NCBI RefSeq assembly: GCF_016864015.1
Contig: NZ_CP045067.1
Location: forward strand, 1,461,001-1,525,000
Reading direction: 5' to 3'
Length of the DNA: 64,000 nt
Source: Lacinutrix sp. WUR7
GTDB taxonomy: Bacteria; Bacteroidota; Bacteroidia; Flavobacteriales; Flavobacteriaceae
Shown one piece after another: positions 28,592 to 47,987 of the stretch. The notes under the pieces are model-generated. The model ran no database searches and had not been told where the DNA came from. It was given only the letters and a program-made list of their open reading frames with translations. A program made the translations under genes and the position numbers. Position 1 is the stretch's first letter; each line of letters opens with the position of its first letter.

Positions 28592-28675
28592 AAATTAGTG
28601 TTTAATTACTATTCTTAATGGGTTAAATTTACTAAAAAACTGATAGAAGTTTTTTTAAAAAGTAAGTTAAACTTT

Positions 28676-28695
28676 AAGGCCTAATACAAGGCCTT
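28676..28695 (-). terminator. Hairpin after the susCD-PL7 operon
   Basis: A perfect 7-bp GC-rich stem AAGGCCT/AGGCCTT with a 6-nt loop, about 40 bp after the PL7 stop, followed on the minus strand by a weak T-rich stretch. It separates the uptake operon from the GntR gene. Confidence 0.6.
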
Positions 28696-28735
28696 TAAGC
28701 CTAACTAAATCACAATAAGACTAATCAAAATATTT

Positions 28736-32033: not shown

Positions 32034-35000
32034 TTAAAATTGAACATTTAAGCCTAGAGAGATTGTTTGGTTTATTGGAGAACCACCTCTTTGGTACCCA
32101 TACGTTGTAGCTAATTGCGTACCTGATGTATGATAAACAGATTCTGGGTTGAAACCAGTATAATTATCTGCAGTAAAATACAGTAGATTTTGACCAGAAG
32201 CATACAGTCTAAGTTTTTCAATCTTTAATTTAGATGTTAAGCTTTTTGGTAATGTGTATCCAATATTTACAGTTCTTAAGGCTACATAAGATGCATCTTG
32301 TATGATAGAGTTTGTAAATATTTTTTCTTTAATAAATTCTTGATTAGGTGTTGCTGCAGTGTAATCTTGAGCAGAATTAAAATGATTAAAGATGTATTGG
32401 TCTGCCATATTACGAACTTCTGCACCATGACTACCTTGAAACATGAATGATAAATCAAAGTTATACACTTTAAAATCATTGGTTATACTCCAAACTAAAT
32501 CTGGATATGGATCTCCTAAAATAGTTTTATCATCATCATCAATTTTACCATCACCATTTAAATCTTTTACATATACATCTTGAGCACTTGCTCCAATTGG
32601 ATGGTATGGATTAGATATATATTCTAAAGGAATTTCTTCATCTACAACCCAACCGTAAAAAGAAGAAATAGGGTTACCTTCTAAATTAATCCATTCTGCT
32701 GCACGTTTAGAATCAACACTTTGAATTTGCCCGTTTGAATCAGCAAAATCCATTAATTCGTTTGTGTTTTTAGAAGCTATTAAAGTAGTGTTCCAAGAAA
32801 AATTCTCTCTTGAATAGTTACGTGAACGTAACTCTAATTCATGACCACTATTTCTAACTTCTCCTCTATTTACTAAAGCATCAGTAAATCCAGTTGTAGA
32901 AGGGATAGGGTTGTATAATAATAACTGGTCACTTGTTCTTTCATAATAGTCATAAGAACCAGAAATTACGTTGTTAAAGAAACCAAAGTCAATACCTGGG
33001 TTAAATTCTTTTAAACGTTCCCATTTTAAATCTTCGTTAGCAATATTCAATTGGTTATAACCATTTGTAACGTTACCATTAATAACTCCAGTAGATGTTT
33101 CAAATAAAGAATATGATGGGTAGTTATCTATTTGGTTGTTACTTGTGTCTAGAACATCATTCCCTGTGAAACCGTAACTAGCACGTAATTTTAATTTACT
33201 AACAAAATTACTCTCTTCTAAAAAGCTTTCATTACTAAGTATCCAACCAGCAGAAAAAGCAGGGAAGTTTCCGTATTTGTTATTTTCACTAAACCTAGAA
33301 CTACCATCTCGTCTAATACTTGCTGAAAGAAGATACTTATTATCGAATGCGTAATTTGCTCTAGCAAAAACCGACATTAATGTGTTTTCATATTCTTCAG
33401 ACTCAAATGCTATTACCGTTGTAGCGGCAGAAATAGTTTGTAATTTATCCGATGTATATCCATTTCCAGATACTGCATCATTATCATATTGCCATTGCTC
33501 TGCAGCAAAACCAGCGATAGCAGAAACATCATGCTTTCCAAAGTTTTTATCATAAGAAAAGTAGTTGTCTGTAGACATATGTGTTTTTCTTTCATTAAAT
33601 AAATCCAATTGTGCAGCAGAAGCTCCATTTCTATTAGATAAAACACCTTGCCATCTACGGCTTTTTGTACTTTGATAATCACCACCAATAGTTGCTTTAA
33701 AGCTTAATGCATCTGTAATATCATATTTACCATAGATACTTCCAAAAAGTTTAAACTTATCGTCTGTACGGTCACGTTCTAATATTTTAGCAGCTGGATT
33801 TGTATTAGATGTGTTACTAATATCTGTACCACCACTTGATACTGGAAATCCACCATCTAAATCGTAATCATCAAACATACGTTGTTGTGCATAATCACCA
33901 ATTTGCACATCTGCATATTTCCCACCATCTCTTAAGCGGTTTACATATTGAATGTTATCGGCAGTAACATATACTGGTAACCAAGATGGTTGACGTAAGA
34001 TGTCATGTGTAGATCCATCAAAACGACGTCTGTTAGTTATAGATGGAGATAAGTTTACACCAAAAGATAATTTATCTGTTAATTGTGTGTTTACTTTTAA
34101 TTTAACAGCATATTTTTTGTAATCATCTGTTAATAATACACCTTCATCATGTACATAATTTATAGCTGTACTAAAGTTAGTTCTCTTGCTTCCACCTCTA
34201 GCAGCGAAAGAGTGACTAGTAATAACACCACCATCAAAAATTACATCTTGCCAGTTTGTATTATCTCCTAATAGTTGCTTGTATTTAGTTTTATCTGAAA
34301 GCATTCCAGTAGCAGCAAATTCTTTTTCAGCAGTTTCTTTTACCGTGAATGTGTATGCATCACTATGTTTAGCTTCTTTAAATCCTGTGAAAGTATTATA
34401 ACTAAATTTAGTCTCTCCTTCTTTACCATCTTTTGTAGTAATCATGATGATACCGTTAGCACCACGAGATCCATAAATGGAAGAAGATGCAGCATCTTTT
34501 AATACTTCAAAAGATTTTACATCATTCATATCTAGAGATCCTAAATAATCACTGTCTACCACTAGACCATCTACAACAATTAAAGGTGTAGAGTTACCTG
34601 TAATAGAACCAGCACCACGAATGGTAATTGTTGGTGCAGAACCCGCTTCACCTTCTGTTGCTTGAATGTTTACACCAGATACTTGACCTACTAAAGCATC
34701 ATCTACACGAGATACTGCTATTTGATCTAAATCTTCGTTTACTACTTTAGATATAGATCCAGTTAAGTGACTTTTCTTTTGTGTACCATAACCAATTACT
34801 ACAACCTCATCTAAATTATTAGCGTCTGCCGCTAAAGACATATCGATTGTATTTTGATTTTCAATAATTACTGTTTGAGAGATGTAACCAATATAAGAAA
34901 ACTGAATAACATCGCCTTTTTTTACTTGTAGTTGGTAATTACCATCAAAATCAGTACTTGTTCCTGTACTAGTGCCTACAATAATTACATTTACACTCGG

Positions 35001-35120
35001 TAAAGGCATATTGTCATTAGCATCTACCACTAGCCCTTTTACTGTTAGTTTTTCTTGGGCAAAGGCAGAAATGCACATAAAGAGTATTGCAAATAATGCC
35101 GATTTAGCTTTTAAATTCAT
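32034..35120 (-). CDS. susC: SusC-family TonB-dependent receptor
   Basis: A 1028-residue outer-membrane importer: signal peptide ending in AFAQ, a carboxypeptidase-regulatory-like domain at about 25-100, a plug ('VVIGYGTQKKSHLTGSISKV', about residue 110) and a beta-barrel ending GLNVQF. It takes up alginate oligomers with SusD, powered by TonB. Its promoter and operator lie about 200 bp upstream, giving a long untranslated leader. Confidence 0.95.
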   Translation of the reverse strand: MNLKAKSALFAILFMCISAFAQEKLTVKGLVVDANDNMPLPSVNVIIVGTSTGTSTDFDGNYQLQVKKGDVIQFSYIGYISQTVIIENQNTIDMSLAADANNLDEVVVIGYGTQKKSHLTGSISKVVNEDLDQIAVSRVDDALVGQVSGVNIQATEGEAGSAPTITIRGAGSITGNSTPLIVVDGLVVDSDYLGSLDMNDVKSFEVLKDAASSSIYGSRGANGIIMITTKDGKEGETKFSYNTFTGFKEAKHSDAYTFTVKETAEKEFAATGMLSDKTKYKQLLGDNTNWQDVIFDGGVITSHSFAARGGSKRTNFSTAINYVHDEGVLLTDDYKKYAVKLKVNTQLTDKLSFGVNLSPSITNRRRFDGSTHDILRQPSWLPVYVTADNIQYVNRLRDGGKYADVQIGDYAQQRMFDDYDLDGGFPVSSGGTDISNTSNTNPAAKILERDRTDDKFKLFGSIYGKYDITDALSFKATIGGDYQSTKSRRWQGVLSNRNGASAAQLDLFNERKTHMSTDNYFSYDKNFGKHDVSAIAGFAAEQWQYDNDAVSGNGYTSDKLQTISAATTVIAFESEEYENTLMSVFARANYAFDNKYLLSASIRRDGSSRFSENNKYGNFPAFSAGWILSNESFLEESNFVSKLKLRASYGFTGNDVLDTSNNQIDNYPSYSLFETSTGVINGNVTNGYNQLNIANEDLKWERLKEFNPGIDFGFFNNVISGSYDYYERTSDQLLLYNPIPSTTGFTDALVNRGEVRNSGHELELRSRNYSRENFSWNTTLIASKNTNELMDFADSNGQIQSVDSKRAAEWINLEGNPISSFYGWVVDEEIPLEYISNPYHPIGASAQDVYVKDLNGDGKIDDDDKTILGDPYPDLVWSITNDFKVYNFDLSFMFQGSHGAEVRNMADQYIFNHFNSAQDYTAATPNQEFIKEKIFTNSIIQDASYVALRTVNIGYTLPKSLTSKLKIEKLRLYASGQNLLYFTADNYTGFNPESVYHTSGTQLATTYGYQRGGSPINQTISLGLNVQF

Positions 35121-35310: not shown

Positions 35311-35335
35311 TTGGTTTACCAGATTGGTTTACCAA
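35311..35335 (-). promoter_or_regulatory. Tandem GntR-type operator of the susC promoter
   Basis: Two copies of TGGTTTACCA separated by 3 bp lie directly downstream of the -7 box, covering the expected start of transcription. The core GGTnnACC fits the GntR-family pattern GT-N-AC. The same arrangement recurs at 47936-47960 with one base changed. Confidence 0.8.
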
Positions 35336-35362
35336 ATATATATAAAATTTTGTTAAATACAA
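35333..35362 (-). promoter_or_regulatory. susC promoter, TTG-N19-TATATTTG
   Basis: Read on the minus strand, TTG at 35362-35360 is followed after exactly 19 bp by TATATTTG at 35340-35333, a perfect match to the Bacteroidota -33/-7 consensus. The operator overlaps its end by three bases. Confidence 0.82.
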
Positions 35363-35388
35363 CGTTTTCGTGAATTTTATATATCAAA

Positions 35389-35606: not shown

Positions 35607-35981
35607 TTAAGCCTTATCTGAAAAATAAGATACTGCATCGCCACTTAAGAAATCTTCTCTCACTGGACTAAAAGTATCAATTAACTCTCCTTCTTCTAAG
35701 CAAACAGCGCTATGCAATAAGTTAGGTTCAATATACACACCATCTCCTGCTTCTACAATTTGCTTCTCTCCATCAATTTCAAATTCAAATTTCCCAGAAA
35801 CACAATAGGTAGCTTGTGTGTGAAAATGTTGATGTGGAGCACCTAATGCACCTGCATCAAACTTCACTCTTACCATCATGATTTGGTTATCGTAACCTAA
35901 AAATTTTCTAGATACTCCGCCACCTAGTACTTCCCATTCCATGTCTTTTGTGATGACATACTTTTCGCTAAATCTTTTCAT
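35607..35981 (-). CDS. kdgF: KdgF cupin, unsaturated uronate ring-opening enzyme
   Basis: A 124-residue single-domain cupin. The metal-binding pattern HQHFHTQ (residues 50-56) and His90 match KdgF enzymes, which speed the conversion of 4,5-unsaturated monouronate to linear DEH. It is the last gene of the degradation operon, right after PL17 whose product it would use. The length is typical. Confidence 0.88.
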   Translation of the reverse strand: MKRFSEKYVITKDMEWEVLGGGVSRKFLGYDNQIMMVRVKFDAGALGAPHQHFHTQATYCVSGKFEFEIDGEKQIVEAGDGVYIEPNLLHSAVCLEEGELIDTFSPVREDFLSGDAVSYFSDKA

Positions 35982-36018
35982 ATGTTTATTTTTATTGTTT
36001 TTAAAAGGTCATATGTTG

Positions 36019-36064
36019 CTTCCATATAATCGTTCTCTTGCGTATTAAGTTACCGATATGGAAG
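36019..36064 (-). other. Inverted repeat between PL17 and kdgF
   Basis: Arms CTTCCATAT and ATATGGAAG (36019-36027, 36056-36064) are perfect, with a 28-nt loop and no T run. It may be an mRNA hairpin that sets relative levels of the two genes. Confidence 0.35.
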
Positions 36065-36088
36065 GTTCATAATTTTAATTGTTTTGTT

Positions 36089-38362
36089 TTATTTGAAATA
36101 ATAAGAACCTGACCACTCGTAATTCTTATCGTTAATTTTTACTTTATGTTTCACTTCTTTTGAAGCATTTGTGTTTGCTGTTATAAACAGTTTGGTGTTC
36201 CCTTTTATATTGGTGATTTGTATTGCGGTATACGCTTCTGTATCTAAAACCACTTTTAATGCTGCGATGCTACTGTTGGAGTTTACTGCAGATTCTGTCA
36301 CCGGACTGTAACTTCCATGGGATTCAATTGCCGATACAAAAATAGTGTTTTTAGCATTTTTTCGTCTTAGCATGAAAGCTGCTTCTCGTCTTAAATTAAA
36401 TTCAGGATCGTTTGCTCCAATTCTTGTAAATAGTAACTCATCGGTAGTATTGGTTACAGACGTTAAGGTGTAAAACTTCCCTTTGTTTAACCAGGATAGT
36501 TTGCTATTGTCACTAGACGCTTTTGCTGTTCCTTCTACAAATAGATGTTGATATCCATTTTTTGTTCCTAAAGGATTTAATGTCTTAGGTGTTTTGTAGT
36601 CAAAATTTGTTTGAATTACTTGTCCTAAAAAGTAATACGGAAAATCATATTGATTTGCTTTATCTGAAGTCACCTTCATGATATCTAACATATATGGCTT
36701 TTCAAAATCTTCATCTTTTATAATTGCCATGGTACGAAGCATCTCTGTTCCAGGATATGCATTACTTTCCTTGGCACTTGCTACTTGTACGTTTTCATTT
36801 TCTGAAGAAAAATAGTTTAGTACCGAATGATGTTTACTTCCTATTTCATACTTCGCATTAAAATGAGAAGTTTCATTTTGTGTTACCGTATTATGTGCAA
36901 TGGTTTGTTTTGCCCAAGTCTTGTTTTCCTTTAGGTAATTTCCACCGCCTTTTTGTTCGATATTTACAAAACGCGCTAAACCGTAATCTTGAAGAATTTC
37001 TTCGCCTTTTTCGTATAAAGAATACGACAACTTATCATAATGACCATGACTAGAGCCTTGCGCAGCATACTTAAAGACCAATTCGATATCTTCATTTCTT
37101 AAAATAGCAACTCCGCCTTGTGTTCCATTTGGTCCATCAGATAAATTAATTGATTTTTTATCGAATGGTTTTGCTTTCCCGTTTTTGATACCAAGTGCTA
37201 CTGCCAAACCAGAATCGTCTAATAATACTTTGTTTTGCTCTGTTGCGATACTTAATAATCCTGGATCTTGTGTTCCGAAATGATAAGAAATATCTACAGC
37301 AGTAACCAAAGCATCGTTATAATAGGACATTCCTTTTTGACCATCGTTAAGTGGGAAAAAATCACCATCTGCATCCGATAGATTCAATAAAGCATGTATC
37401 GATTTTAGTAATACTCCATCTTTATATTCAAAAATCTTCAATTCTGGTTTCATGTTATGTAAGCCTTCCGCAAAAATTAAAAAAGGATACATCGCATAAC
37501 GTTGGTAATATGGTCCTTCGTTATAATAACCATCTGGAGAAAAAGGTTCTTCAATATTCGCTAGAAAGCCAGCTTTTCCATCTTTATTTAAAAAACCACC
37601 ATCGTCATCTTTTTCATTCGTATTTAGTTTTAAATCTTTAATTCCGTATAAAGCACGATCAATTAATTCTTGGTCGTTCATTACTAAACCAATCATGCCA
37701 ACAGCTGCATTTCCCCAAGTACTATGGTTGTGTACTCTTTGGTAAAATTGCGGACTGTCTATAGAAATGTGATCTGCAAATGGTTTAAATAAATTGGTTT
37801 CTAATTTGTTGCGTTCTTCTTCAGATAAATAATTATAAATACAATCGTAAGCCTGACTTACATATACCAACCAATTAGCATCATTTAGACATTGCCAGAA
37901 TAATTTACCTCTTGCATACGATCTTGTTTTTGGATGCAATGGTAATGTTTTGTACATCGCTTCGTATTCCATCAACATGTCTTTTACGTATTTAGCATAT
38001 TTTTCGTCGTCTAAAATTTGATACAAAACACCTGCTTTTTGCAAAACAATCATGTTGCGTTTATGGCGTACATGTGTGTAACCACCAGAATAATCTACTG
38101 GTATTGGTGTTTCTATTCCTAATGCAATTTCTGCATCTATTTCCTCTTGAACTGCTTTTAGCGTATTGTCAAAAATTGGAATATTACCCAGTTGCGCTCT
38201 AATGTCTGTAACGCCTTGTGCAGTTAAAATTAGATTTGGATGTGCTTCTGCACTAGGTATTGTTGTTTCCGCATTGGATACAGACGTGTTCTCTTTCTTG
38301 CATGAAAACGACAAGCATAAAACAAAGGCTAAAACAAAGTAAAAAGAGAATTGATTTTTCAT
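36089..38362 (-). CDS. PL17 oligoalginate lyase (heparinase II/III fold)
   Basis: A 757-residue lipoprotein (lipobox cysteine in LCLSFSCKKE). An alpha-toroid domain holds 'FYQRVHNHSTWGNAAVG' with the Asn-His pair used in PL17 catalysis, and a heparinase II/III-like beta domain holds 'GSSHGHYDKLSYSLY'. PL17 enzymes are exolytic and release unsaturated monouronate from oligoalginate, usually in the periplasm. It stands between the SDR and kdgF, matching the order of the pathway. Confidence 0.93.
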   Translation of the reverse strand: MKNQFSFYFVLAFVLCLSFSCKKENTSVSNAETTIPSAEAHPNLILTAQGVTDIRAQLGNIPIFDNTLKAVQEEIDAEIALGIETPIPVDYSGGYTHVRHKRNMIVLQKAGVLYQILDDEKYAKYVKDMLMEYEAMYKTLPLHPKTRSYARGKLFWQCLNDANWLVYVSQAYDCIYNYLSEEERNKLETNLFKPFADHISIDSPQFYQRVHNHSTWGNAAVGMIGLVMNDQELIDRALYGIKDLKLNTNEKDDDGGFLNKDGKAGFLANIEEPFSPDGYYNEGPYYQRYAMYPFLIFAEGLHNMKPELKIFEYKDGVLLKSIHALLNLSDADGDFFPLNDGQKGMSYYNDALVTAVDISYHFGTQDPGLLSIATEQNKVLLDDSGLAVALGIKNGKAKPFDKKSINLSDGPNGTQGGVAILRNEDIELVFKYAAQGSSHGHYDKLSYSLYEKGEEILQDYGLARFVNIEQKGGGNYLKENKTWAKQTIAHNTVTQNETSHFNAKYEIGSKHHSVLNYFSSENENVQVASAKESNAYPGTEMLRTMAIIKDEDFEKPYMLDIMKVTSDKANQYDFPYYFLGQVIQTNFDYKTPKTLNPLGTKNGYQHLFVEGTAKASSDNSKLSWLNKGKFYTLTSVTNTTDELLFTRIGANDPEFNLRREAAFMLRRKNAKNTIFVSAIESHGSYSPVTESAVNSNSSIAALKVVLDTEAYTAIQITNIKGNTKLFITANTNASKEVKHKVKINDKNYEWSGSYYFK

Positions 38363-38399
38363 ATTAAAAAAGATCTATTGTGTTGTTAATATAATAAAA

Positions 38400-39167
38400 C
38401 TACATATTATATACACCACCATTAATATCAAGTGTAGCTCCTGTAATAAAGCCATCGTATTCTGAGGCTAAATATAAAACCGCTCGAGCTACATCGGCAG
38501 CATTACCTGCTCGTTGTATTGGTATCCCTGCAGTTGTTGCAGCTGCAGATTCTTTTGTGGTATGTGTATTGTGAAAGGATGTTCCAAGAATAAGACCTGG
38601 AGAAACCGCGTTCACTCGAGTACCTTGTGCACCTAATTCTGTAGACAACGCACGTGTGAATGTTAAGATGGCACCTTTACTCGTGGAGTACACTAAAGAT
38701 CCTGGATGACCACCTTTACGTCCTGCAAGGGATGCTAAATTAACAATGCTACTATTATCCTGCTTTGCTAAATACGGAGCTGCTGCTCGTGTAACAAACA
38801 TCATCGAAGTAAGGTTAATGTCCATTACTTTATGCCAGAATTCCGTTTCCATTTCGTTTAGCATTTTTCGTGCAACCAAAGAACCTGCGTTATTGATAAG
38901 GATGTCTAAACCTCCAAATGCTTCTACTGTCTTTTCTACCATGGCATTTGCATCGGCTTCTTTTGTTAAGTCACCAGATATAGCAACTGCTTTTACACCT
39001 TTACTATGGGCGTACGCTACTAATTCATTCGCAGTATCTGCACTAGAAAAATAGTGGATAGCAACATTAGAACCACTATCTATAAAATGTCTAGTGATAG
39101 ATTCTCCAATTCCTTGAGCACCTGCTGTGATTAGTATGTTTTTTCCTGTTAATTTATTATTTGTCAT
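38400..39167 (-). CDS. SDR oxidoreductase, probable second DEH reductase
   Basis: A 255-residue classical SDR with 'ITAGAQGIGESI' as nucleotide loop, NNAGS and catalytic YSTSKGA. Its position between PL7 and PL17 points to DEH reduction. It differs from the SDR at 25746 in the residues after the second strand ('HYFSSAD' here against 'NGIDD'), the region that sets NADPH or NADH preference, so the two may use different cofactors. Confidence 0.82.
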   Translation of the reverse strand: MTNNKLTGKNILITAGAQGIGESITRHFIDSGSNVAIHYFSSADTANELVAYAHSKGVKAVAISGDLTKEADANAMVEKTVEAFGGLDILINNAGSLVARKMLNEMETEFWHKVMDINLTSMMFVTRAAAPYLAKQDNSSIVNLASLAGRKGGHPGSLVYSTSKGAILTFTRALSTELGAQGTRVNAVSPGLILGTSFHNTHTTKESAAATTAGIPIQRAGNAADVARAVLYLASEYDGFITGATLDINGGVYNM

Positions 39168-39179
39168 CGTAATTATAAT

Positions 39180-40283
39180 TTATTTTACTTTGTCATTTTT
39201 ATTGAAATAGCCATCGTTAGATACCGCATTTTCACTTACCGAAATACTTCCTGTTTTAAACCATACTTCCGCATAGTTTCCGTCTGCATATTGTTTTGCA
39301 ATATCGCCACCATGTGTTTCTGCACCAGAACACCAGTTTTTATTTACCTCTGGAGATTTTCCGTTGGTTTGGTTATACGCACCTAATTTGAAAAAACAAC
39401 CTTCACCAGCGTAAGCATCTTTTCGCTCCACACCATCTTGACCAATTGGTATAAATAATTTTTGTGTTTGTTCTGGGATATCTGCTTTTGTTGTGTATTC
39501 AGATACTAATAAGTTTTTTGTAAACGTTTTTGTTTCATGTCCTTCACTTGTGAAATTTAAGGTCATGATACCGTCTTTAACTAGTACTTCATAGCTGAAT
39601 GTTTCGCCAAGAGCAATACCATCTTTAGGCTCTTCAGGATACGTATCTGCGGTTTCACCAACTACAGAAAAATCATCACCCCAAACAGCGGAAGAATAAT
39701 CCCATCTTCCAGAATTATCATCGCCTTCCGTATTTATTTCATAATGCCAAAAAACAGAACCTTTGGTGTGTCCTGGGAATTTTTTGTAAAATATTTTAAG
39801 CGGTTCGTTTTCATGTTTATCTGCACTATGAATTTGACCAACAACTACAGCATGGGAAGCAGCTACTCTTGCATCTCCAGTTGCAGATACATTCATCACT
39901 TTAAGTGTTGCGGTTAATTTGTCATTTGCCGTTTCTGGATACCATTTTTTGGTTTGTGCCAATTCGGTTCTTGTATTATTTGAAGTTCCGTGGGTGCTTC
40001 CTGCATTTGGTGCTTTGAAAACTACCCAATCCCCATCACTGTCGTTTGCAGTGTAAAAGAAGTCTTTGTCTTCAAAATTATTTGCAATTCCAACATTAAC
40101 TCCATTTCCTAAAACTAATTTCCAATCATCGAAAAACGGAATAACATCACTTGCATATACTGTTTTTTCAATCTCTTTTTCTTCGGTTTTTACCTCTCCT
40201 TTTTTATCTGTATTCTTACAGCTATTCAGGGTGAAAATTGCACATAAAATACAAAGTGCTATTGTGGTGGTTTTTTTATTCAT
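39180..40283 (-). CDS. PL7 alginate lyase, AlyA5-like, lipoprotein
   Basis: The ATG at 40283 is preferred (MNKKTTTIALCILCAIFTLNSC, lipobox cysteine); 40304 would add seven residues. The PL7 motifs are RTELAQ, QIHS and FFKLGAYNQTNG. It is clearly paralogous to the gene at 43526-44545, sharing the stretch around 'NEPLKIFYKKFPGHTKGSVF'. The extra loops resemble exolytic PL7 subfamily 5 enzymes such as Zobellia AlyA5. It probably trims oligomers in the periplasm or at the outer membrane. Confidence 0.9.
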   Translation of the reverse strand: MNKKTTTIALCILCAIFTLNSCKNTDKKGEVKTEEKEIEKTVYASDVIPFFDDWKLVLGNGVNVGIANNFEDKDFFYTANDSDGDWVVFKAPNAGSTHGTSNNTRTELAQTKKWYPETANDKLTATLKVMNVSATGDARVAASHAVVVGQIHSADKHENEPLKIFYKKFPGHTKGSVFWHYEINTEGDDNSGRWDYSSAVWGDDFSVVGETADTYPEEPKDGIALGETFSYEVLVKDGIMTLNFTSEGHETKTFTKNLLVSEYTTKADIPEQTQKLFIPIGQDGVERKDAYAGEGCFFKLGAYNQTNGKSPEVNKNWCSGAETHGGDIAKQYADGNYAEVWFKTGSISVSENAVSNDGYFNKNDKVK

Positions 40284-40326
40284 TTTTATATTTTTTAGTT
40301 TCATTTTTTATGGTCTTAAATACGGA

Positions 40327-41601
40327 TTAGAAATATTCTGTTAAGGCTATAATTCCGTTATACGAAATAATTAAAGAAAATAGTAAAGCTGCAGATAAGC
40401 CAACATTAACAAAAATACCAGTCTTATATCCTTTCATGATTTTTGTGTTATTTACTATCATTATAATCCCAAGGATTACTAGTGGTAAAACAAACACATT
40501 AAACACTTGCGAAAGTATTTGAATCTCAATAGGATTTGCTCCAAATGCAGGGCCAATTAGTGCTACTAAACAAGCAACTGCTGTAATTATTCTAAACTGA
40601 CGTGAGTTGGTATCTAATTCTCCCGACTGATAATCTGCAACTAATAAAGGTGCGATTAATAAACATGGGAAAATAGAGGATAAACCAGCACTTAATGCTC
40701 CGAAAAAGAAAATAGTAACGGCCCATTTACCAGCAACAGGCTCTAAAGTATTTGCCATATCTAATACATGTGTTACTTCTTTGCCTTGATAAAACAAAGC
40801 ACCTGCAGCAACAGCCATGATAACACCACTAATTACAAAAATTAAAATGGCAGCTGTAATCGCGTCCTTTTTTTGTTGATCTAAGTTTTTAATAGTCCAT
40901 CCTTTTCCTTTTACAAAAAGAGGTCTAGATAAAAATGTAGCCGAAGCCATAGTGGTACCAACAAAAGCAGCAACCAACATTTTACCACCAACCACATCTG
41001 GAATTGTTGGTATTAATCCTTTTACAACATCTATTGGAAGTGGTTGTACAAAGCATAAAGAAAGTACAAACGATATTCCCATTAAGGTTACAAAAATGAC
41101 AAGTATTTTTTCGAAGAAAGTGTACTTACCAACTAACATTAAAAGATAAAACGTAACGATAATTACAATGGCTGTTATTAAAACCGTTTCATATTTATAG
41201 GCAGCTAAACCTTCAAAGTTCACAGATAAGATTTCAAAAATAATATTAGAAGAAATTCCTAAAATTCCCATTAAGGAATTCCATTGCCCAAACGTAATAC
41301 CAACTATAATTAATATGGCTAATATTTTTCCGTATTTAAAGTGTTTTTTAAATCCGTACAGCGCAGTTTCGCCAGTTAATAAGGCGTAATTACCATAAGC
41401 AAACATTAAAATACCAGAAAACAAACAACTTAATAAAAGTACCCAGAGTAGTTGCATGTTAAATTTACTTCCTGCAACAATCATAGAGGTGACACTTCCT
41501 GTTCCAATAGTATAACCAATTGCGAAAATACCAGGACCAAATCCCAATATTAATGCGATAATTTTTTTAAGAAAGGATTTTTTAGGTTGTGTTACTTCCA
41601 T
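40327..41601 (-). CDS. Nramp-related membrane transporter lacking the metal-site motifs
   Basis: A 424-residue protein with about eleven membrane helices and an Nramp-like start ('ILGFGPGIFAIGYTIGTGS', residues 18-36). The DPGN motif of helix 1 is replaced by YTIGTGS, and no MPH triplet is found in helix 6 ('AAFVGTTMASATFLSRPLF'). It therefore probably does not carry Mn or Fe. Lying in the middle of the alginate operon, it may import a uronate, gluconate or a cation needed for it. Substrate unknown. Confidence 0.72.
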   Translation of the reverse strand: MEVTQPKKSFLKKIIALILGFGPGIFAIGYTIGTGSVTSMIVAGSKFNMQLLWVLLLSCLFSGILMFAYGNYALLTGETALYGFKKHFKYGKILAILIIVGITFGQWNSLMGILGISSNIIFEILSVNFEGLAAYKYETVLITAIVIIVTFYLLMLVGKYTFFEKILVIFVTLMGISFVLSLCFVQPLPIDVVKGLIPTIPDVVGGKMLVAAFVGTTMASATFLSRPLFVKGKGWTIKNLDQQKKDAITAAILIFVISGVIMAVAAGALFYQGKEVTHVLDMANTLEPVAGKWAVTIFFFGALSAGLSSIFPCLLIAPLLVADYQSGELDTNSRQFRIITAVACLVALIGPAFGANPIEIQILSQVFNVFVLPLVILGIIMIVNNTKIMKGYKTGIFVNVGLSAALLFSLIISYNGIIALTEYF

Positions 41602-41628
41602 AGTATGTGTTGGTTTGATTCGTTTGTG

Positions 41629-43029
41629 TTATTTCCAGATGGTATGGTGGCTTTTTACACCATCATCATCTGTTCTTTTATACGTGTGTGCTCCAAAATA
41701 ATCGCGTTGTGCTTGTAGGATATTTGCGGAAGAATTTGCTGTTGTAATTCCGTTAAAAAACGGAATAGATTCTCCTAAACAAGGCGCCGTAATATCATTA
41801 AGAATACATTGTGACACTACCTTTTTTGCTGAAGGTCTGTATTGTTTTATCGAAGCTATAAGTTGCGTATTGGTTAATATGTTTGTCGTCTCTTTAAAGA
41901 CTATAACCAATTCTTCCATTAAAGTAGATCTTATGATACAGCCGTTCGTCCAAATTCTAGCAATCTCGCTTAAATTTAAACCCCATGAGAATTTATTGGA
42001 AGCTTCCGCAATGAGTTTAAAACCTTGATAGTGGTTTATAATTCTTGCAAATTGATAGGCTTCTAAAACTTCTGTGGACGTACTATTTACAGATGAAGTC
42101 GTTTCCGTTTTAAAGTTTTCATTTAATTGTATACGTTCTTCTTTGTAAAACGAAGTATAGCGAGAGAATAGGGCAGAAGCGATTAATGTACTTGGTACAC
42201 CAAGTTCTGCAGAAGCAATAGTTGTCCAGTTTCCGGTACCTTTATTTCCTGCTTTATCTAGAATTTTTTTTACTAGCCAATCGTTGCCTTCCTTTTTTCT
42301 TAGAATGTCTATGGTTATTCCTAGTAAGTAACTATCTGTTGTGCTTTTCCAAGTTTCTAAAGTGTTTGCAATCTCGTCTAGATTTTGTCCGGAAGCTTCT
42401 AAAATAGTACAAACCTCAGCAAGCAATTGCATTTCTACATATTCCACACCATTGTGTACCATTTTTATAAAATGACCACTTCCTTCTGGTCCAACATAGG
42501 TGCAACATGGTAAATTGTTTTTGTCTTTTGCTGCAATTTTATCTAGAAAAGGCTTTACGTTATTATACGCTTCTACATCGCCACTTGGCATTATAGACGG
42601 TCCGTTTAATGCTCCTTCTTCCCCTCCTGAAACACCAGTTCCTATAAAATGAATGCCTTTAGATTTTAAGTAGTCACCACGTTCTTTTGTTTTTAAATAA
42701 TTAGAGTTTCCACCATCGATTAAAATATCGTTTTTTGATAAATGCGGAAGCAGATCTTCAATGACATAATCTATTGTTTTTCCAGCATTCACCATGAGCA
42801 TTATTTTTCTTGGTGTTTGTAAAGCATTCACAAAAGCAGAAATATCATCAAAAGCGGATGCATCAGATAACTCGGAATAGTTTGCCTTAAAATTTTTAGC
42901 AACATCTACTTCAACACCATCTACGTGTCTATTAAACATGGCGATTTTAAACCCGTTTTTAGCCAAATTACGGCATAGGCTTTTTCCCATGACACCTAAA
43001 CCAAATAATCCAAATGCTGATTTATCCAT
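41629..43029 (-). CDS. gnd: 6-Phosphogluconate dehydrogenase, decarboxylating
   Basis: A 466-residue enzyme with N-terminal loop GLFGLGVMGKSL, 'IDGGNSNYLKTKERG', the catalytic 'VGPEGSGHFIKMVHNGVEY' segment (Lys, His, Asn) and a normal C-terminal tail. It oxidises 6-phosphogluconate to ribulose-5-phosphate, CO2 and NAD(P)H. It overlaps gluconokinase by 8 bp, so they work as a pair. Its place within an alginate operon is unusual. Confidence 0.93.
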   Translation of the reverse strand: MDKSAFGLFGLGVMGKSLCRNLAKNGFKIAMFNRHVDGVEVDVAKNFKANYSELSDASAFDDISAFVNALQTPRKIMLMVNAGKTIDYVIEDLLPHLSKNDILIDGGNSNYLKTKERGDYLKSKGIHFIGTGVSGGEEGALNGPSIMPSGDVEAYNNVKPFLDKIAAKDKNNLPCCTYVGPEGSGHFIKMVHNGVEYVEMQLLAEVCTILEASGQNLDEIANTLETWKSTTDSYLLGITIDILRKKEGNDWLVKKILDKAGNKGTGNWTTIASAELGVPSTLIASALFSRYTSFYKEERIQLNENFKTETTSSVNSTSTEVLEAYQFARIINHYQGFKLIAEASNKFSWGLNLSEIARIWTNGCIIRSTLMEELVIVFKETTNILTNTQLIASIKQYRPSAKKVVSQCILNDITAPCLGESIPFFNGITTANSSANILQAQRDYFGAHTYKRTDDDGVKSHHTIWK

Positions 43030-43513
43030 TAATTTGTATTTTTATCGTTTTTATAATGTTTTCTGGTGTTAGGCTAATATCGATTTTCAAAGCATCTTTA
43101 GGTTCTTCTAAAGTTTCAAACTGAGATTTTAATAATTCGGAAGGCATAAAGTGATTTCGTCTTTTATTCACTCTATTGAAAATTTGATTAAAATCACCAC
43201 TTAAATACACCCATCTTGTTTGGGCTTCCAGATCTAAACTTAAAGTGTCTCGATACTTTTGCTTTAAAGCAGAACATACGATGACGCAACTGTTTTTGGT
43301 CAATTGCTTTTTCGCTAAATCATTTAATGTCTCTAGCCAACCTTGTCTATCTTCGTCATTTAAAGGTTTTCCATTAGACATCTTTTTAATGTTCGCTTTG
43401 GAATGGAAATCGTCACCATCAAAAAAAGGAATATCTAATTCTTGAGCGAGTAGTTTTCCGATAGTACTTTTTCCACAACCTGAAACTCCCATTATATATA
43501 TTACTTTTTTCAA
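43022..43513 (-). CDS. gntK: Gluconokinase
   Basis: A 163-residue P-loop kinase with Walker A GVSGCGKSTIG (residues 9-19), 'DGDDFHSKANIKKMSNGKPL' and 'RRNHFMPSELLKSQFETLE', all typical of GntK. It makes 6-phosphogluconate from gluconate and ATP. The overlap with gnd indicates translational coupling. Confidence 0.93.
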   Translation of the reverse strand: MKKVIYIMGVSGCGKSTIGKLLAQELDIPFFDGDDFHSKANIKKMSNGKPLNDEDRQGWLETLNDLAKKQLTKNSCVIVCSALKQKYRDTLSLDLEAQTRWVYLSGDFNQIFNRVNKRRNHFMPSELLKSQFETLEEPKDALKIDISLTPENIIKTIKIQING

Positions 43514-43525
43514 TATTTTTATTTT

Positions 43526-44545
43526 TTATTGGGCCGTACTTTTGCCTACAGTTGCTGCTTTAAACCAAACCTCTGCATAACTTCCATTTGCATATTGCTT
43601 TTCTATATCACCACCATAAGTCTCAGACTTGGTAGATTTTCCGTTTGCCTGGTTATAAGCACCTTGTTTGAAATAATTAATTTCGCCAGCATAAGCAATT
43701 TCTCTTTCTACACCTACTGTTCGTCTAGATGCATACACATCCATGATCTGCTGTGGGATTTTTGATTTTGTCCCAAAATCGGACATCAATAAATTTTTGG
43801 TAAAGGTTTTAGTCTCGTGTCCTTCACTTGTAAAGGTTAAATACATAATGCCATTATAAATATTTACCTCGTAGCTAAATTCTTCGCCTAATGCAATACC
43901 ATCTTCTGGTTCTGCAGGACTTGTAGTCGCATTTTCTCCAACCACCGAAAAATCATATCCCCAAACTGCTGTAGAAAAATCCCATCTACCAGAATTGTCT
44001 CCCTTTGTATTTATTTCATAGTTCCAAAAAACAGAACCTTTTGTGTGTCCTGGGAATTTTTTATAGAATATTTTTAGTGGTTCGTTTTCATGTCCTTCAT
44101 CGCTATGAATTTGCCCAACAACCACAGCGTACGAAGACGAAACATCTGCATTTCCTGTTGTAGAAACATGTTGTACTTTTAATGTTCCAGTTAGTTTTCC
44201 TCCAGTTTCTGGAATCCAATGTGCTTTTTGACCAAGCTCTGTTCTTGTGTTACTTGATGTTCTAGAAGTGATACCAGAGTTTGGTGTTTTATAGACTACC
44301 CAATCTGTATTACCATCATTTTCTACATAAAAGAAATCGTCTTTTTGGTAGTTTACTAAGTCATCTACGTAGGTTCCGTCACCTAAAAGAATTTTCCATT
44401 GGTCCATAAATGGAATGACATCACTTGGAAATTTTGTTACCTTTTTTGTTTCCTTTTCCACCGTTGCTTCAGCAGTTGTTTTAGTATTATTTTTACATCC
44501 AACGATTAGTAAAAGTGTAAAAATTGCAAATAGTAATTTTTTCAT
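43526..44545 (-). CDS. PL7 alginate lyase, AlyA5-like paralogue, lipoprotein
   Basis: A 339-residue lipoprotein (MKKLLFAIFTLLLIVGCKN). The PL7 motifs are RTELGQ, QIHS and YFKQGAYNQANG. It aligns along its whole length with the lyase at 39180-40283, sharing QIHS, GRWD and AVWG segments, but lacks a cysteine-containing insert present there. It lies 12 bp before gntK. Probably exolytic or oligomer-specific by analogy with PL7 subfamily 5. Confidence 0.9.
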   Translation of the reverse strand: MKKLLFAIFTLLLIVGCKNNTKTTAEATVEKETKKVTKFPSDVIPFMDQWKILLGDGTYVDDLVNYQKDDFFYVENDGNTDWVVYKTPNSGITSRTSSNTRTELGQKAHWIPETGGKLTGTLKVQHVSTTGNADVSSSYAVVVGQIHSDEGHENEPLKIFYKKFPGHTKGSVFWNYEINTKGDNSGRWDFSTAVWGYDFSVVGENATTSPAEPEDGIALGEEFSYEVNIYNGIMYLTFTSEGHETKTFTKNLLMSDFGTKSKIPQQIMDVYASRRTVGVEREIAYAGEINYFKQGAYNQANGKSTKSETYGGDIEKQYANGSYAEVWFKAATVGKSTAQ

Positions 44546-44596
44546 TTTAAGCTTTTTTATTGCATTTTATGAGATTGCTGCCTGCGCAGGAATCAA

Positions 44597-46906
44597 TTAG
44601 TACATCAGTGTCATCACTAAATTTTCTTCCGTCTTAATTTGTCCGGAATTAGTTACTGTATTTTCAGATTCCACATTGTTTTTTGCTCCCCAAAGAATAG
44701 ATACAAATTGTACTGGATTGTTTTTAAATGTGTTTTTAGTAATATTTACATTCACAATACCATTGTGGTTTAGTAACCTTTTGTTTTTTTCTTTTGCACC
44801 ACAATTCGTAAATGTGCTGTTAGATATTAAAAGGTTTCCTCCAATAGTAGACTCATCATAACCACCTCTGTAATAATCCACAACATTTTGTTTTACGTTG
44901 TTGAATTGACAGTTGTTAATGGTTAAATATTCGGTATTATAATCTCCTCTATCGTTTGTTTCTTCCGATAATTCTATGCCGTTTTCACAATCTGAAATGG
45001 CAGTGTTTTCAAAAGTTACACGTTCTGAAAAGGATTGTTTGTATGCTTTTAAAACATAGTTGAAATTACTTATTTCTGTATTGGAAACGGTTAGCCCGAA
45101 ATGATTCGACATATTCTCTTTTAAACTAGCAAACGCATAATTGGAAGCGTTTCCTTTTAAGATCATGTTGTTTACTGTCAGTTTCCCTTTAGGTTGTAAA
45201 GAAAATAATGGGGTATTTGCTACACCAGAAAAAACAAGTTGCGCTTTTCCTTCTGATTGTATAGTAAGTGTTTTATTGATTACTAAAGATTTTGAAATAG
45301 CATAAACACCTTCCGCGACAGCGATAATATCACCAGTATTAGCAGCATTTATTTTGGTTTGTAATTCTTCTGCTTTAGTTACGGTGTGCGTTACTGGAGT
45401 TGCAGCTTTCATTTCGTTAGAATACCATGAAGCACCATATTTGGATTTATCTAGAATATTAGGATTCGTAAAATCGACACCTACAACGGCACCAATACTA
45501 TTGCTATTTTTTCTAGAGTTACCAGATAAGTCTTTTTCGATGGTTTCAAAATCAAATCCATTATAAGGTTCTACGTCACTAGGAATTCCTGTTGGAAGTA
45601 AAATATAATCAGATACTTTTTGCAACTTTAGAGAGGCAGGAATTATTCCGCCATCAAAGTCCTTGAATTTCACACCTTGATTATCTACGACGTTATTTTT
45701 GAAAGTTACGCCATCTGCTTTGTCATTTTCAACAACAATGCTTTTCAGGCCTTTTTCATTATACACCACATTATTAGCAACCGTAGTTCTAATAGCTCTT
45801 GCAGAACGGATTTCCGATTTTGGTAATACATCTGCTTGTGCAATGTTGGTACCTACGCCAAATTGCCAAGGAGCACTACAGTTTACGTAGGTGTTATAAG
45901 CAACCACCACATCTGTTACTTGATTGTAACGGTTTAAAGGTGATTTTGGAATACCATTCATAACAGCCAACGGACTTCTAAAGCTTTTTCCTTTTAAGTT
46001 GAAAAAGTAATTATTAGTAACCCAATGTCCTGTGTTTATAATTCGAATTCCACCATATTGTTCATTTACGCCATCACCAATAAAATAGTTACCATCAATG
46101 GTCACGTAATTTCCATGACGAGTAACTACAGAACCTTCACTTTTATAAAATACATTATTTCTAATTTCGTTGAAGTTGGTTTTACTTGAAATAATTTCTA
46201 CTTCGCCATTACACTCCTCAAATAAATTATTTGCAATGGTTGTATTACTTGGACTCATGGAAGTAAAGCTACTTCCTAATTGAATTGTTTCTCCTCTTGC
46301 TCCACCTTTTCTAGGTCGAGGTCCAAAATGGTTATTGACAATTTTATGATAATTCTTAATACTTTGAACCCCTTTTAAATCCACTCTTACTGTTGGTCCA
46401 CCGTTTGTTTTTCCGGCAAGATAACAATTGCTTAACTCGTTATGTCTTCCGTAGAACTGCACCCAAAGATCATCATTATCGCGTTGTAGTTTATTGAAAT
46501 CTACAATAACACAGTTTGTAACTTTGCAGTTATTTGCTATGGTATTTTTGTCTAATCGGAAAGCGATTACATTTTCAGATGGAGAATATCCATTTCTAAA
46601 ATGTAAACCACTTACTTCTAAATATTCACCACCAAAAGCTAGGTTAGAAATTCCTTCAATAAAAACTTGACCTTCGGTTTCTGCTTTAATGGTTATAGGC
46701 TTGTCTTTAGTTCCTTTTCCTGTGAATTTTATTTCAACATCTTTCCAAACTCCATTTGCTAAAACAATGTTGTCTCCAGGTTTACTATTTTTAATCGCAG
46801 TGTTTAATTCTTCGATATTGGATACTGTATTTAAGCTAGTAGTTTCTGTGTTTCCACAAGCGACTAGAAACAAGGAAAGGATTAAAATGGAAGCTATTTT
46901 TTTCAT
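44597..46906 (-). CDS. PL6 alginate lyase (chondroitinase B family)
   Basis: A 769-residue lipoprotein (lipobox Cys17). It is a right-handed parallel beta-helix rich in 'NNxF' turns, with the conserved basic cluster RPRKGGARGE at residues 197-206 and Lys178 upstream, fitting the catalytic Arg and Lys of PL6. The second helix domain covers about residues 500-769, as in PL6 subfamily 1. It cleaves alginate, often at guluronate-containing bonds. The gap to the PL7 gene upstream holds a hairpin. Confidence 0.92.
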   Translation of the reverse strand: MKKIASILILSLFLVACGNTETTSLNTVSNIEELNTAIKNSKPGDNIVLANGVWKDVEIKFTGKGTKDKPITIKAETEGQVFIEGISNLAFGGEYLEVSGLHFRNGYSPSENVIAFRLDKNTIANNCKVTNCVIVDFNKLQRDNDDLWVQFYGRHNELSNCYLAGKTNGGPTVRVDLKGVQSIKNYHKIVNNHFGPRPRKGGARGETIQLGSSFTSMSPSNTTIANNLFEECNGEVEIISSKTNFNEIRNNVFYKSEGSVVTRHGNYVTIDGNYFIGDGVNEQYGGIRIINTGHWVTNNYFFNLKGKSFRSPLAVMNGIPKSPLNRYNQVTDVVVAYNTYVNCSAPWQFGVGTNIAQADVLPKSEIRSARAIRTTVANNVVYNEKGLKSIVVENDKADGVTFKNNVVDNQGVKFKDFDGGIIPASLKLQKVSDYILLPTGIPSDVEPYNGFDFETIEKDLSGNSRKNSNSIGAVVGVDFTNPNILDKSKYGASWYSNEMKAATPVTHTVTKAEELQTKINAANTGDIIAVAEGVYAISKSLVINKTLTIQSEGKAQLVFSGVANTPLFSLQPKGKLTVNNMILKGNASNYAFASLKENMSNHFGLTVSNTEISNFNYVLKAYKQSFSERVTFENTAISDCENGIELSEETNDRGDYNTEYLTINNCQFNNVKQNVVDYYRGGYDESTIGGNLLISNSTFTNCGAKEKNKRLLNHNGIVNVNITKNTFKNNPVQFVSILWGAKNNVESENTVTNSGQIKTEENLVMTLMY

Positions 46907-46943
46907 AAATGAATTATTAATAGGTTGTTGTTTATAAAATACA

Positions 46944-46970
46944 AAAAGCCTTTCGGTTTAGAAGGCTTTA
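46944..46970 (-). terminator. Hairpin after the first gene of the degradation operon
   Basis: Stem AAAGCCTT/AAGGCTTT with a short loop, then TTTTTG on the minus strand, between PL7 and PL6. It could end part of the transcripts after the first lyase. Confidence 0.7.
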
Positions 46971-46982
46971 AAATTGTTTTAC

Positions 46983-47912
46983 TTAATGTGTGACACTTAA
47001 GCTGTAATACTTTACATACGAAAATGCGTCTGCATCCGTAGTTGTTAAATAATTACCTGCTTTAAAGTAGTTTTCGTAAGGCCATTTGTCTAGACTAATA
47101 TCTTCATAAGCATAAGGTGTATTTGTATTAAGTTGTATTTCTATTTTAGCGTCACTTGCCGTTATTCTGAAATCGAATGCATCATTACCAACATAACCAA
47201 GATTGACTTTAATGTCTGTCCATGTACTGTTAGAAGTCTCTAATAAATCGTCTCCATCTGTGGAATCATCTATTAATGATTTTTTGTGTGACCAAACATA
47301 ACCGTCTTTCCAATAAATCTTTATTAAAGGAGGACCATTATTAGATGAAAAACCATGTGTATTCATATCTTCCGGAGAAATAATGCCATGAATTTGCATC
47401 ACTATCACTTTATGATAATCATCACTAGATTGTGTGTTTTCTGAAACAGCATCTACTTTTAAACGTCCTGTCATTTCTCCTCCTTCTAATAAGCTCCAGT
47501 TGTCGCTAGAACTATTTGGGTTTATAAGCTCTCTTAATTCGGTTCTAGAATACGAACTGTTTGTTGTAGAAATATCTGGAAAGGTATAAAATAGCAAAGA
47601 AGCATCTGTTTCGTCATCATACATATAGGGTTGTACAGGTTCTAAAGTTTGATATCCTAAATTTATTAATTCCGAAGGTTGGTATTCATCTGGTCCACCA
47701 TTATTATTCTCATCAACAGGTAAAGTTACTTTCCAATTCGAAAAATTGATATCTGCATATGCGATTATTTCTTCTTCTTCCGAATCATCAATATCTACTT
47801 CTATGATTTCCATATTATCTGAAGAATTATCCGTACTAGAACAGCTAAATGTCATAAACACAATACAGATTGTGAGTACTTGTAGTAGTTGTTTTTTAGT
47901 GATTGTTTTCAT
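46983..47912 (-). CDS. PL7 alginate lyase, first gene of the degradation operon
   Basis: A 309-residue lipoprotein (lipobox Cys24 in MTFSCSSTD) with an acidic linker at residues 33-50. The PL7 motifs are RTELREL, QIHG and YFKAGNYL. It is closer to the lyase of the susCD operon than to the two AlyA5-like ones. Surface-bound endolytic action on alginate polymer is likely. It is directly controlled by the promoter at 47958-47987. Confidence 0.92.
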   Translation of the reverse strand: MKTITKKQLLQVLTICIVFMTFSCSSTDNSSDNMEIIEVDIDDSEEEEIIAYADINFSNWKVTLPVDENNNGGPDEYQPSELINLGYQTLEPVQPYMYDDETDASLLFYTFPDISTTNSSYSRTELRELINPNSSSDNWSLLEGGEMTGRLKVDAVSENTQSSDDYHKVIVMQIHGIISPEDMNTHGFSSNNGPPLIKIYWKDGYVWSHKKSLIDDSTDGDDLLETSNSTWTDIKVNLGYVGNDAFDFRITASDAKIEIQLNTNTPYAYEDISLDKWPYENYFKAGNYLTTTDADAFSYVKYYSLSVTH

Positions 47913-47935: not shown

Positions 47936-47960
47936 TTGGTTAACCAGATTGGTTTACCAA
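47936..47960 (-). promoter_or_regulatory. Tandem GntR-type operator of the degradation operon
   Basis: TGGTTAACCA and TGGTTTACCA separated by 3 bp; 24 of 25 bases equal the susC operator. It directly follows the -7 box on the minus strand. Confidence 0.8.
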
Positions 47961-47987
47961 AAATAGCGATATTTATTTAATTCGCAA
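47958..47987 (-). promoter_or_regulatory. Promoter of the ten-gene degradation operon, TTG-N19-TATTTTTG
   Basis: Read on the minus strand, TTG at 47987-47985 and TATTTTTG at 47965-47958 are 19 bp apart, as in the susC promoter. The leader to the ATG at 47912 is about 40 bases. Confidence 0.8.

Follow-up and report, generated by a model that had tools for sequence, protein, structure and literature searches.

The window analyzed here, a stretch of 64,000 nucleotides from the genome of Lacinutrix sp. WUR7, encodes two alginate operons on the minus strand, and the question raised by this locus is whether the two are switched by one regulator and, if so, by which one. The uptake operon, which extends from 35120 down to 22566, consists of susC, susD and the genes for a PKD protein, a PL7 lyase, a GntR-family regulator (gntR), an MFS protein, an SDR, a pfkB-type kinase, a KDPG-type aldolase, a one-lobed LacI-family protein and an EamA protein, in this order. 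The lyase operon comprises the genes for a PL7 lyase, a PL6-type lyase, another PL7 lyase, gluconokinase, 6-phosphogluconate dehydrogenase (6PGDH), an Nramp-type transporter, a further PL7 lyase, an SDR, a PL17 lyase and a cupin; the gene order and the short gaps between the genes agree with its original designation as a ten-gene operon.

Two promoters with a common operator design

Both operons start from promoters that fit the Bacteroidota housekeeping consensus, TTG-N17..23-TAnnTTTG, with a spacer of N19, and in both cases the operator TGGTWWACCA-ATC-TGGTWWACCA is fused to this promoter (Table 1); in each case, the opening TG of the first unit is shared with the -7 box. The two 25-bp operators are identical at 24 of 25 bases, whereas for flanks of 20, 50 and 100 bases the identity is 10 and 11, 27 and 25, and 43 and 43 bases, respectively (43-55%). 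The original prediction had described two matching modules with the same 19-bp spacing and with a nearly invariant two-unit element, set in differing flanks, that overlaps the -7 box and covers the start site. This observation is confirmed in all these respects, the start site being the expected position.

Table 1. Features of the alginate locus in the Lacinutrix window
Feature	Coordinates	Strand	Details
One-lobed LacI-family protein	23424..23951	-	175 aa; HTH, hinge and N-terminal lobe only
GntR/FCD regulator gene	27890..28591	-	AusR-like; predicted binder of both operators
Tentative -7-like box	28624..28631	-	TAAATTTA; without operator here
RNA hairpin	28666..28706	-	gap between the PL7 gene and gntR
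susC	32034..35120	-	first gene of the uptake operon
Tandem operator, susC promoter	35311..35335	-	TGGTAAACCA 35334-35325, ATC, TGGTAAACCA 35321-35312
susC promoter	35333..35362	-	TTG 35362-35360, N19, TATATTTG 35340-35333
LacI-type box	35360..35371	-	ACGAAAACGTTG; overlaps the -33 TTG of the susC promoter
Ten-gene lyase operon	35607..47912	-	gene order, short gaps
Tandem operator, lyase promoter	47936..47960	-	TGGTAAACCA 47959-47950, ATC, TGGTTAACCA 47946-47937
Lyase-operon promoter	47958..47987	-	TTG 47987-47985, N19, TATTTTTG 47965-47958

Allowing up to three mismatches, a scan of the window for the tandem pattern gave four strand-matches, at two places, versus 0.01 expected. The genome-wide scan that had been proposed along with the original prediction returned an exact tandem match at two places in the 3.99 Mb genome, and these are the two promoters described here. 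Seven further places match with two or three mismatches, all of them within mechanically called ORFs (at least 120 aa), such that the two sites of the window are the only tandem sites with up to three mismatches outside ORFs in the whole genome. Single units are far less informative: with up to one mismatch, 181 sites were found in this genome versus 147 in the reversed control, which is near chance, and the other four exact copies of TTGGTWWACCAA all lie within ORFs called in the same way. A search for the regulon by single sites was dropped on account of this near-chance count and of the four extra exact sites inside ORFs.

Co-occurrence of the tandem site and the GntR regulator in Flavobacteriaceae

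The tandem site (up to one mismatch), relatives of the GntR regulator (matches with an E-value of 1e-20 or better) and PL7 lyases (PF08787) were surveyed in 299 genomes of Flavobacteriaceae from 236 genera, and the resulting genome lists were compared by eye. The tandem site is present in 75 of the 299 genomes (62 of the 236 genera), at 1 to 10 places in each, compared to five genomes, with one match each, for the reversed pattern. A GntR relative is likewise found in 75 genomes, and 71 genomes possess both; the surveyed genomes are related to each other, and the Fisher test of this co-occurrence takes no account of their kinship. The four genomes that have the site but lack a GntR relative (G089, G117, G154 and G209) contain it at one place each, approximately the rate of the control. 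Conversely, four genomes encode a GntR relative but lack a tandem site with up to one mismatch; in three of these, the protein is ortholog-like (72%, 53% and 48% identical in G025, G297 and G242, respectively), and in the fourth one, G202, the match is only 29% identical.

The few genomes in which regulator and lyase are separated bear on which of the two the site accompanies. PL7 matches were detected in 73 genomes, 71 of them above the cut-off. Five genomes have a GntR relative without PL7, namely, G202 with its 29% match and four with an ortholog (63-78% identical), and all four of the latter contain tandem sites (four in G011, four in G153, one in G176 and three in G227). By contrast, none of the three genomes with PL7 but without a GntR relative (G127, G146 and G257, the matches in the last two being weak, with E-values around 7e-4) contains such a site. 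Given four of four versus none of three, the tandem site appears to follow the regulator rather than the lyase, although the numbers are small.

A promoter-fused ladder of operator units in named relatives

The architecture of the arrays was analyzed in the best 80 of 529 confirmed matches, a set that leans to close relatives and from which records very near to the Lacinutrix genome itself might have been left out; the nearest match in this set comes from Lacinutrix himadriensis (GntR 97% identical). Ten of the 80 loci are shorter than 19 kb, and counts that require full loci refer to the subsets given with them. Together with the window, these loci contain 112 arrays on the gene strand, as counted in a scan that assumed a 13-bp period: 79 with two units, 30 with three and 3 with four. 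When the spacing was left free, exact units lying no more than 60 bp apart formed 117 pairs, all of them with a distance of 13 (94), 26 (21) or 39 (2) bp; the same three distances account for 182 of 194 pairs when one mismatch was allowed. The TGG and CCA ends are present in at least 258 each of the 260 units in the 81 loci, partly by construction of the scan. The three four-unit arrays (L123 at 13295, L127 at 4240 and L164 at 4943) also keep the 13-bp period, with some imperfect units.

The arrays extend downstream from the -7 box. The first unit is fused to TAnnTTTG in 102 of the 112 arrays, compared to 348 of the 3517 occurrences of TTTGG in the same loci, and in 52 of these 102 arrays TTG is located exactly 19 bases ahead of the box; the other 10 arrays lack the fusion. 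Upstream sequence of 400 bp or more is available for 72 susC starts (window included), and 71 of them are preceded by an array within 400 bp, the sole exception being L179. In some of the named loci, arrays are found ahead of PL17, PL6 or PL7 genes as well.

A ladder of TGGTWWACCA repeats with a 13-bp period, fused to TAnnTTTG, extends beyond the original prediction as a family-wide rule by which, in Flavobacteriaceae, alginate genes that are predicted targets of this repressor can be recognized. The rule can be scanned for, and therefore the predicted regulon of a new genome can be listed from DNA alone, which turns one experimental case, that of AusR in Zobellia, into a scannable rule. Moreover, the fusion of operator and promoter provides a simple view of how repression could work and might serve as an expression switch in marine Bacteroidota.

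The predicted repressor and its proposed mode of action

The protein encoded at 27890-28591 combines a GntR-type HTH domain (PF00392, 5.9e-19) with an FCD domain (PF07729, 6.3e-26), and its gene lies within the alginate operon that includes susCD, a lyase and the KDG genes. Two more GntR-HTH genes are present in the Lacinutrix genome, approximately 0.4 and 0.8 Mb away, and have longer frames (505 and 333 aa). The domain architecture and the co-occurrence in 71 genomes support the choice of this gene as the predicted binder in the original prediction, and both sites of the window are very probably operators of this AusR-type GntR/FCD repressor. The position of the sites, their fusion to the -7 box, the tandem architecture, the conservation and the co-occurrence can be read directly from the DNA, and on this basis a mode of action can be proposed. 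When alginate is absent, repressor dimers would be lined up side by side on the adjacent units, covering the -7 box and the expected start site and sterically blocking RNA polymerase at both promoters. Binding of an intermediate of alginate breakdown to the FCD domain would release the dimers, and the ten-gene lyase operon would be switched on together with the uptake operon. Because the regulator gene belongs to an operon under its own control, induction would also yield more repressor. At the susC promoter only, a LacI-family protein might provide a second input.

Two other explanations of the arrays have to be weighed. The near identity of the two elements within one genome might result from chance or from a recent duplication of one promoter; with unrelated flanks, 0.01 matches expected in the window and recurrence of the tandem site in 62 of the 236 genera and, among the named loci, in front of both susC and genes for lyases, we consider this exceedingly improbable. 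The arrays might also be bound by another regulator, either the LacI-family protein of the uptake operon or a different GntR protein, in which case the co-occurrence with the FCD regulator would reflect nothing but shared alginate loci. The presence of a LacI-family gene in the operon speaks for such a reading, as does the use of TGGT/ACCA half-sites by other FCD regulators in the systems covered by the consulted part of PMC4494728. However, the one-lobed LacI-family protein is encoded in 38 of the 81 loci compared to arrays ahead of 71 of 72 susC genes, only one of the three GntR-HTH genes of the Lacinutrix genome lies in the alginate operon, and the arrays accompany the ortholog even where PL7 is missing and are absent where PL7 occurs without it. 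A different binder is very unlikely, and the FCD regulator remains the preferred candidate.

Relationship to AusR and other GntR-family systems

The closest precedent is AusR, the GntR-family alginate repressor of Zobellia galactanivorans (Dudek et al., 2020, as outlined in passages of PMC7874173, PMC8286568 and PMC8073546). According to the same partial accounts, AusR binds promoters via single, double or triple copies of its operator (PMC7874173), and the AusR-operator complex is inhibited by intermediates (PMC7874173, PMC8286568).

Two genomes of our sample allow a direct comparison. Among 30 genomes searched, G001 was singled out by its PL17 lyase, which matches PDB 7bjt, a protein that we take to originate from Zobellia, with 98% identity over 306 residues; this genome is accordingly called Zobellia-like here. 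The protein in PDB 7bjt is AlyA3 (PMC8618178). In G001, the GntR protein occupies the same place in the operon and is 67% identical to that of the window, which qualifies it as an ortholog, and there are three arrays, a triple one ahead of susC and double ones ahead of the PL17 gene and of a gntK-like gene (35% identity); in all three, the fusion to TAnnTTTG is found on the transcribed strand. In G236, which belongs to the same genus as G001 (PL17 89% identical), the 40 kb that were read contain five arrays, and four of these are fused to TAnnTTTG. The same arrays at like promoters in G001 support the original reference to Zobellia AusR as the precedent.

Like the AusR regulon of Zobellia, as far as it is described in the passages cited above, the Lacinutrix locus has a GntR/FCD regulator inside an alginate susCD-PL7-KDG operon and multi-copy operators in the promoters, a likeness that refers to the reported copy number rather than to the letters of the AusR motif. 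The four-unit arrays of the named relatives exceed by one the copy number quoted for AusR. Unlike the AusR regulon, that of Lacinutrix has two-copy arrays, a one-lobed LacI-family protein encoded in the uptake operon, and gluconokinase, 6PGDH and Nramp genes in the lyase operon; furthermore, the susC promoter of the window contains a LacI-type box, which is missing from that of the Zobellia-like G001. The comparison supports the view that the modules of the window form a predicted new member of the AusR regulon, that is, of a kind already known.

The region 40327-43513, inside the alginate lyase operon, encodes the gluconokinase, the 6-phosphogluconate dehydrogenase and the Nramp-type metal transporter. 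In G001 and G236, the two Zobellia-like genomes, an array is likewise followed directly by a gntK-like gene (approximately 35% identity), and hence gluconate metabolism may regularly belong to the regulon.

With respect to the wider family, the consulted sections of PMC4494728 give TKGT/ACMA as the consensus of the FadR subfamily, including the UxuR, PrpR and GntR groups, with GT and AC separated by 2 nt. Both sites of the window show this palindrome, for which 2-3 nt from GT to AC were allowed, and resemble FadR-subfamily operators in their half-sites and 2-nt GT-AC distance; unlike in the operators described in these sections, the units are arranged in tandem with a 13-bp period and are fused to a -7 box of the Bacteroidota type. 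In the survey table of that paper, the first column, which according to the inferred column order is that of FadR, lists 0 Bacteroidetes. The operator of NanR consists of direct repeats of TGGTATAW (consulted sections of PMC4494728), and NanR resembles the Lacinutrix regulator in being an FCD-type GntR protein on several adjacent copies, a mode of binding that is predicted for the latter. In contrast to the NanR repeats, each unit in the window is palindromic and the period is 13 bp, so the arrays are not of the NanR type.

The gntR block

As stated in the original prediction, there is no third copy of the operator before gntR: no tandem site precedes this gene in the Lacinutrix genome. The 144-bp gap between the PL7 gene and gntR contains an RNA hairpin and a tentative -7-like box, TAAATTTA, 32 bases ahead of the ATG. 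The hairpin has a z-score of -3.4 here and of -2.7 to -4.6 in the four relatives that were folded, all of which possess it, two of them with unrelated sequence. Arrays within 300 bp ahead of gntR were found for 6 of 82 gntR matches, five from Aquimarina and one from a MAG; in the five Aquimarina loci, TAAATTTG (four loci) or TAATTTTG (one locus) is located approximately 46 bases ahead of gntR and is fused to the array. In five other-gene cases, all from Polaribacter loci, an array is found ahead of mfs. The gntR block of Lacinutrix may be controlled differently, as the original prediction suggested; its expression by read-through past the intervening hairpin is likely, whether or not a weak promoter ahead of gntR contributes.

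A LacI-type box at the susC promoter

A second conserved element at the susC promoter, missed in the original prediction, is the LacI-type box ACGAAAACGTTG; there is none at the lyase promoter of the window. In loci of at least 19 kb, the box CGAAAACGTT (up to one mismatch) lies 36 bases ahead of the array in 28 of 68 susC promoters, and 34 of the 35 exact boxes in the 81 loci fall outside mapped genes. In L140, L149 and L156, box and array occur with the same spacing at two promoters each, ahead of different genes.

Related boxes are found ahead of central carbon genes. Exact ACGAAAACGTT is present within 200 bp ahead of the GAPDH gene in 13 of 21 loci of the same family compared to none of nine loci from other families, in which the gene starts are approximate, and six of these 13 loci come from genomes without a GntR relative. 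The box reads ACGAAAACGTTTGAAAT ahead of GAPDH (loci L218-L237) and ACGAAAACGTT ahead of susC. The Lacinutrix genome contains 19 distinct copies of ACGAAAACGTT, 9 inside ORFs and 10 outside. The latter include copies in front of the genes for aconitase, FBP aldolase and GAPDH, a copy in the interval that separates a LacI gene from one of the susC type, and copies whose neighbors lack a clear role in carbon metabolism, such as a GATase/porin pair and the gene for an S41 peptidase. Genome-wide, the 10-mer shows no enrichment, with 20 strand-matches versus 54 in the reversed control.

By analogy, the box discussed here resembles those of LacI-family regulators of the Cra/CcpA/PurR type in its central ACGTT core and in its position ahead of glycolytic genes; unlike them, the box ahead of susC and GAPDH is tied to a putative regulator only, and the LacI-family protein of the alginate operon lacks the second lobe. 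A search of the literature by title yielded nothing bearing on a LacI carbon regulon in Flavobacteriaceae or on short or truncated LacI proteins, a statement that pertains to that search.

The one-lobed LacI-family protein

The gene at 23424, near the end of the uptake operon, encodes a LacI-type HTH domain (PF00356, 1.7e-11) but not the two-lobed sugar-binding domain, and the AlphaFold model contains the HTH, a short hinge helix and a single alpha/beta lobe. This model was built with an alignment of 37 of the 38 proteins of this type (that of L104, nearly identical to the one in the window, was left out) and has a mean pLDDT of 77.8 and a pTM of 0.55, with values below 50 in the hinge region. 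In a Foldseek search, the model matched the N-terminal half of CcpA, PurR, LacI and their kin, with an rmsd of 1.8-3.9 A over approximately 84-95 aligned columns and of at least 7 A over longer alignments. The possibility that this is a broken gene was rejected because the protein is kept at 169-180 aa in 38 of the 81 loci and because each of the 10 pairs for which the rates were computed has a dN much lower than its dS (dN/dS of about 0.03-0.22). Short LacI frames (170-187 aa) were observed also in genomes without an AusR relative (G157, G292, G097, G013 and G244).

Candidate readers of the susC box

The box CGAAAACGTT over the -33 element might be read by a general LacI-family carbon regulator, in which case alginate uptake would answer also to the central carbon status. 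The conservation of the box ahead of GAPDH in 13 of the 21 family loci suggests that such a wider regulator may act at susC, and the six of these loci from genomes without a GntR relative, the location of nearly all exact boxes outside mapped genes, the box-array pairs at two promoters and the copies ahead of the FBP aldolase and aconitase genes are consistent with it. Against this stand the lack of genome-wide enrichment, the copies inside ORFs, the approximate gene starts in the outgroup, the absence of the box from 40 of the 68 susC promoters and the putative nature of the regulator, so that on balance we regard dual control as a plausible reading that falls just short of an even chance. 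The occurrence of this box at GAPDH as well as susC promoters suggests an input of carbon status into polysaccharide uptake in Flavobacteriaceae.

Alternatively, the box might be bound by the one-lobed LacI-family protein, acting as a local, ligand-independent second repressor or as an antagonist of a full-length LacI protein. This protein is encoded in 23 of the 28 loci with the susC box versus 14 of the 40 without it, whereas the full-length LacI of the locus, rejected as a binder of the box, shows no association with it. Genome-wide, the exact box-promoter pattern matches 10 of the 299 genomes, of which eight are of the AusR type, all eight with the one-lobed protein; viewed from the other side, the pattern is present in 8 of 13 AusR-type genomes with this protein versus 0 of 62 other AusR-type genomes, kinship being ignored. 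However, the reversed control of the pattern matches five of the 299 genomes, two of the 10 matches come from genomes without AusR, and the same box occurs ahead of GAPDH in genomes without the alginate regulator. The independent pairs obtained from the tree (L172, whose array starts 18 bases from the end of the locus, was left out) are too few to support the link, and five loci keep the box while neither the locus itself nor the remainder of the genome contains a gene for the one-lobed protein. Relocation of the gene in these genomes was rejected: the search, which included two genomes with the gene in the locus, found only full-length LacI frames (336-368 aa) in the five. Binding of the box by the one-lobed protein is accordingly an unlikely reading.

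Dual control can be combined with a role of the one-lobed protein in a joint reading that goes beyond the original prediction. The susC promoter would be a two-input module in which the AusR ladder anchored at the -7 box responds to alginate and the LacI-type box at -33 ties the promoter to a putative, hitherto undescribed central-carbon regulon of Flavobacteriaceae including GAPDH, FBP aldolase and aconitase. At this box, the one-lobed protein, which judging from the model would lack the usual cleft for binding a sugar, would act locally as a partner or an antagonist. We put this combination forward as a tentative scheme that is rather more likely to fail in some part than to hold as a whole.

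In several Winogradskyella loci (L117, L133, L140, L149 and L156), a second promoter with the box and a GntR array precedes another gene; in L117 and L133, the box-array pair is found at this second promoter only and is one base nearer. In L117, the gene behind this promoter (18949-19875) encodes a protein of 308 aa in which Pfam identifies only a Por secretion tail. The Winogradskyella gene behind the second box-array promoter may be a further member of the alginate regulon.
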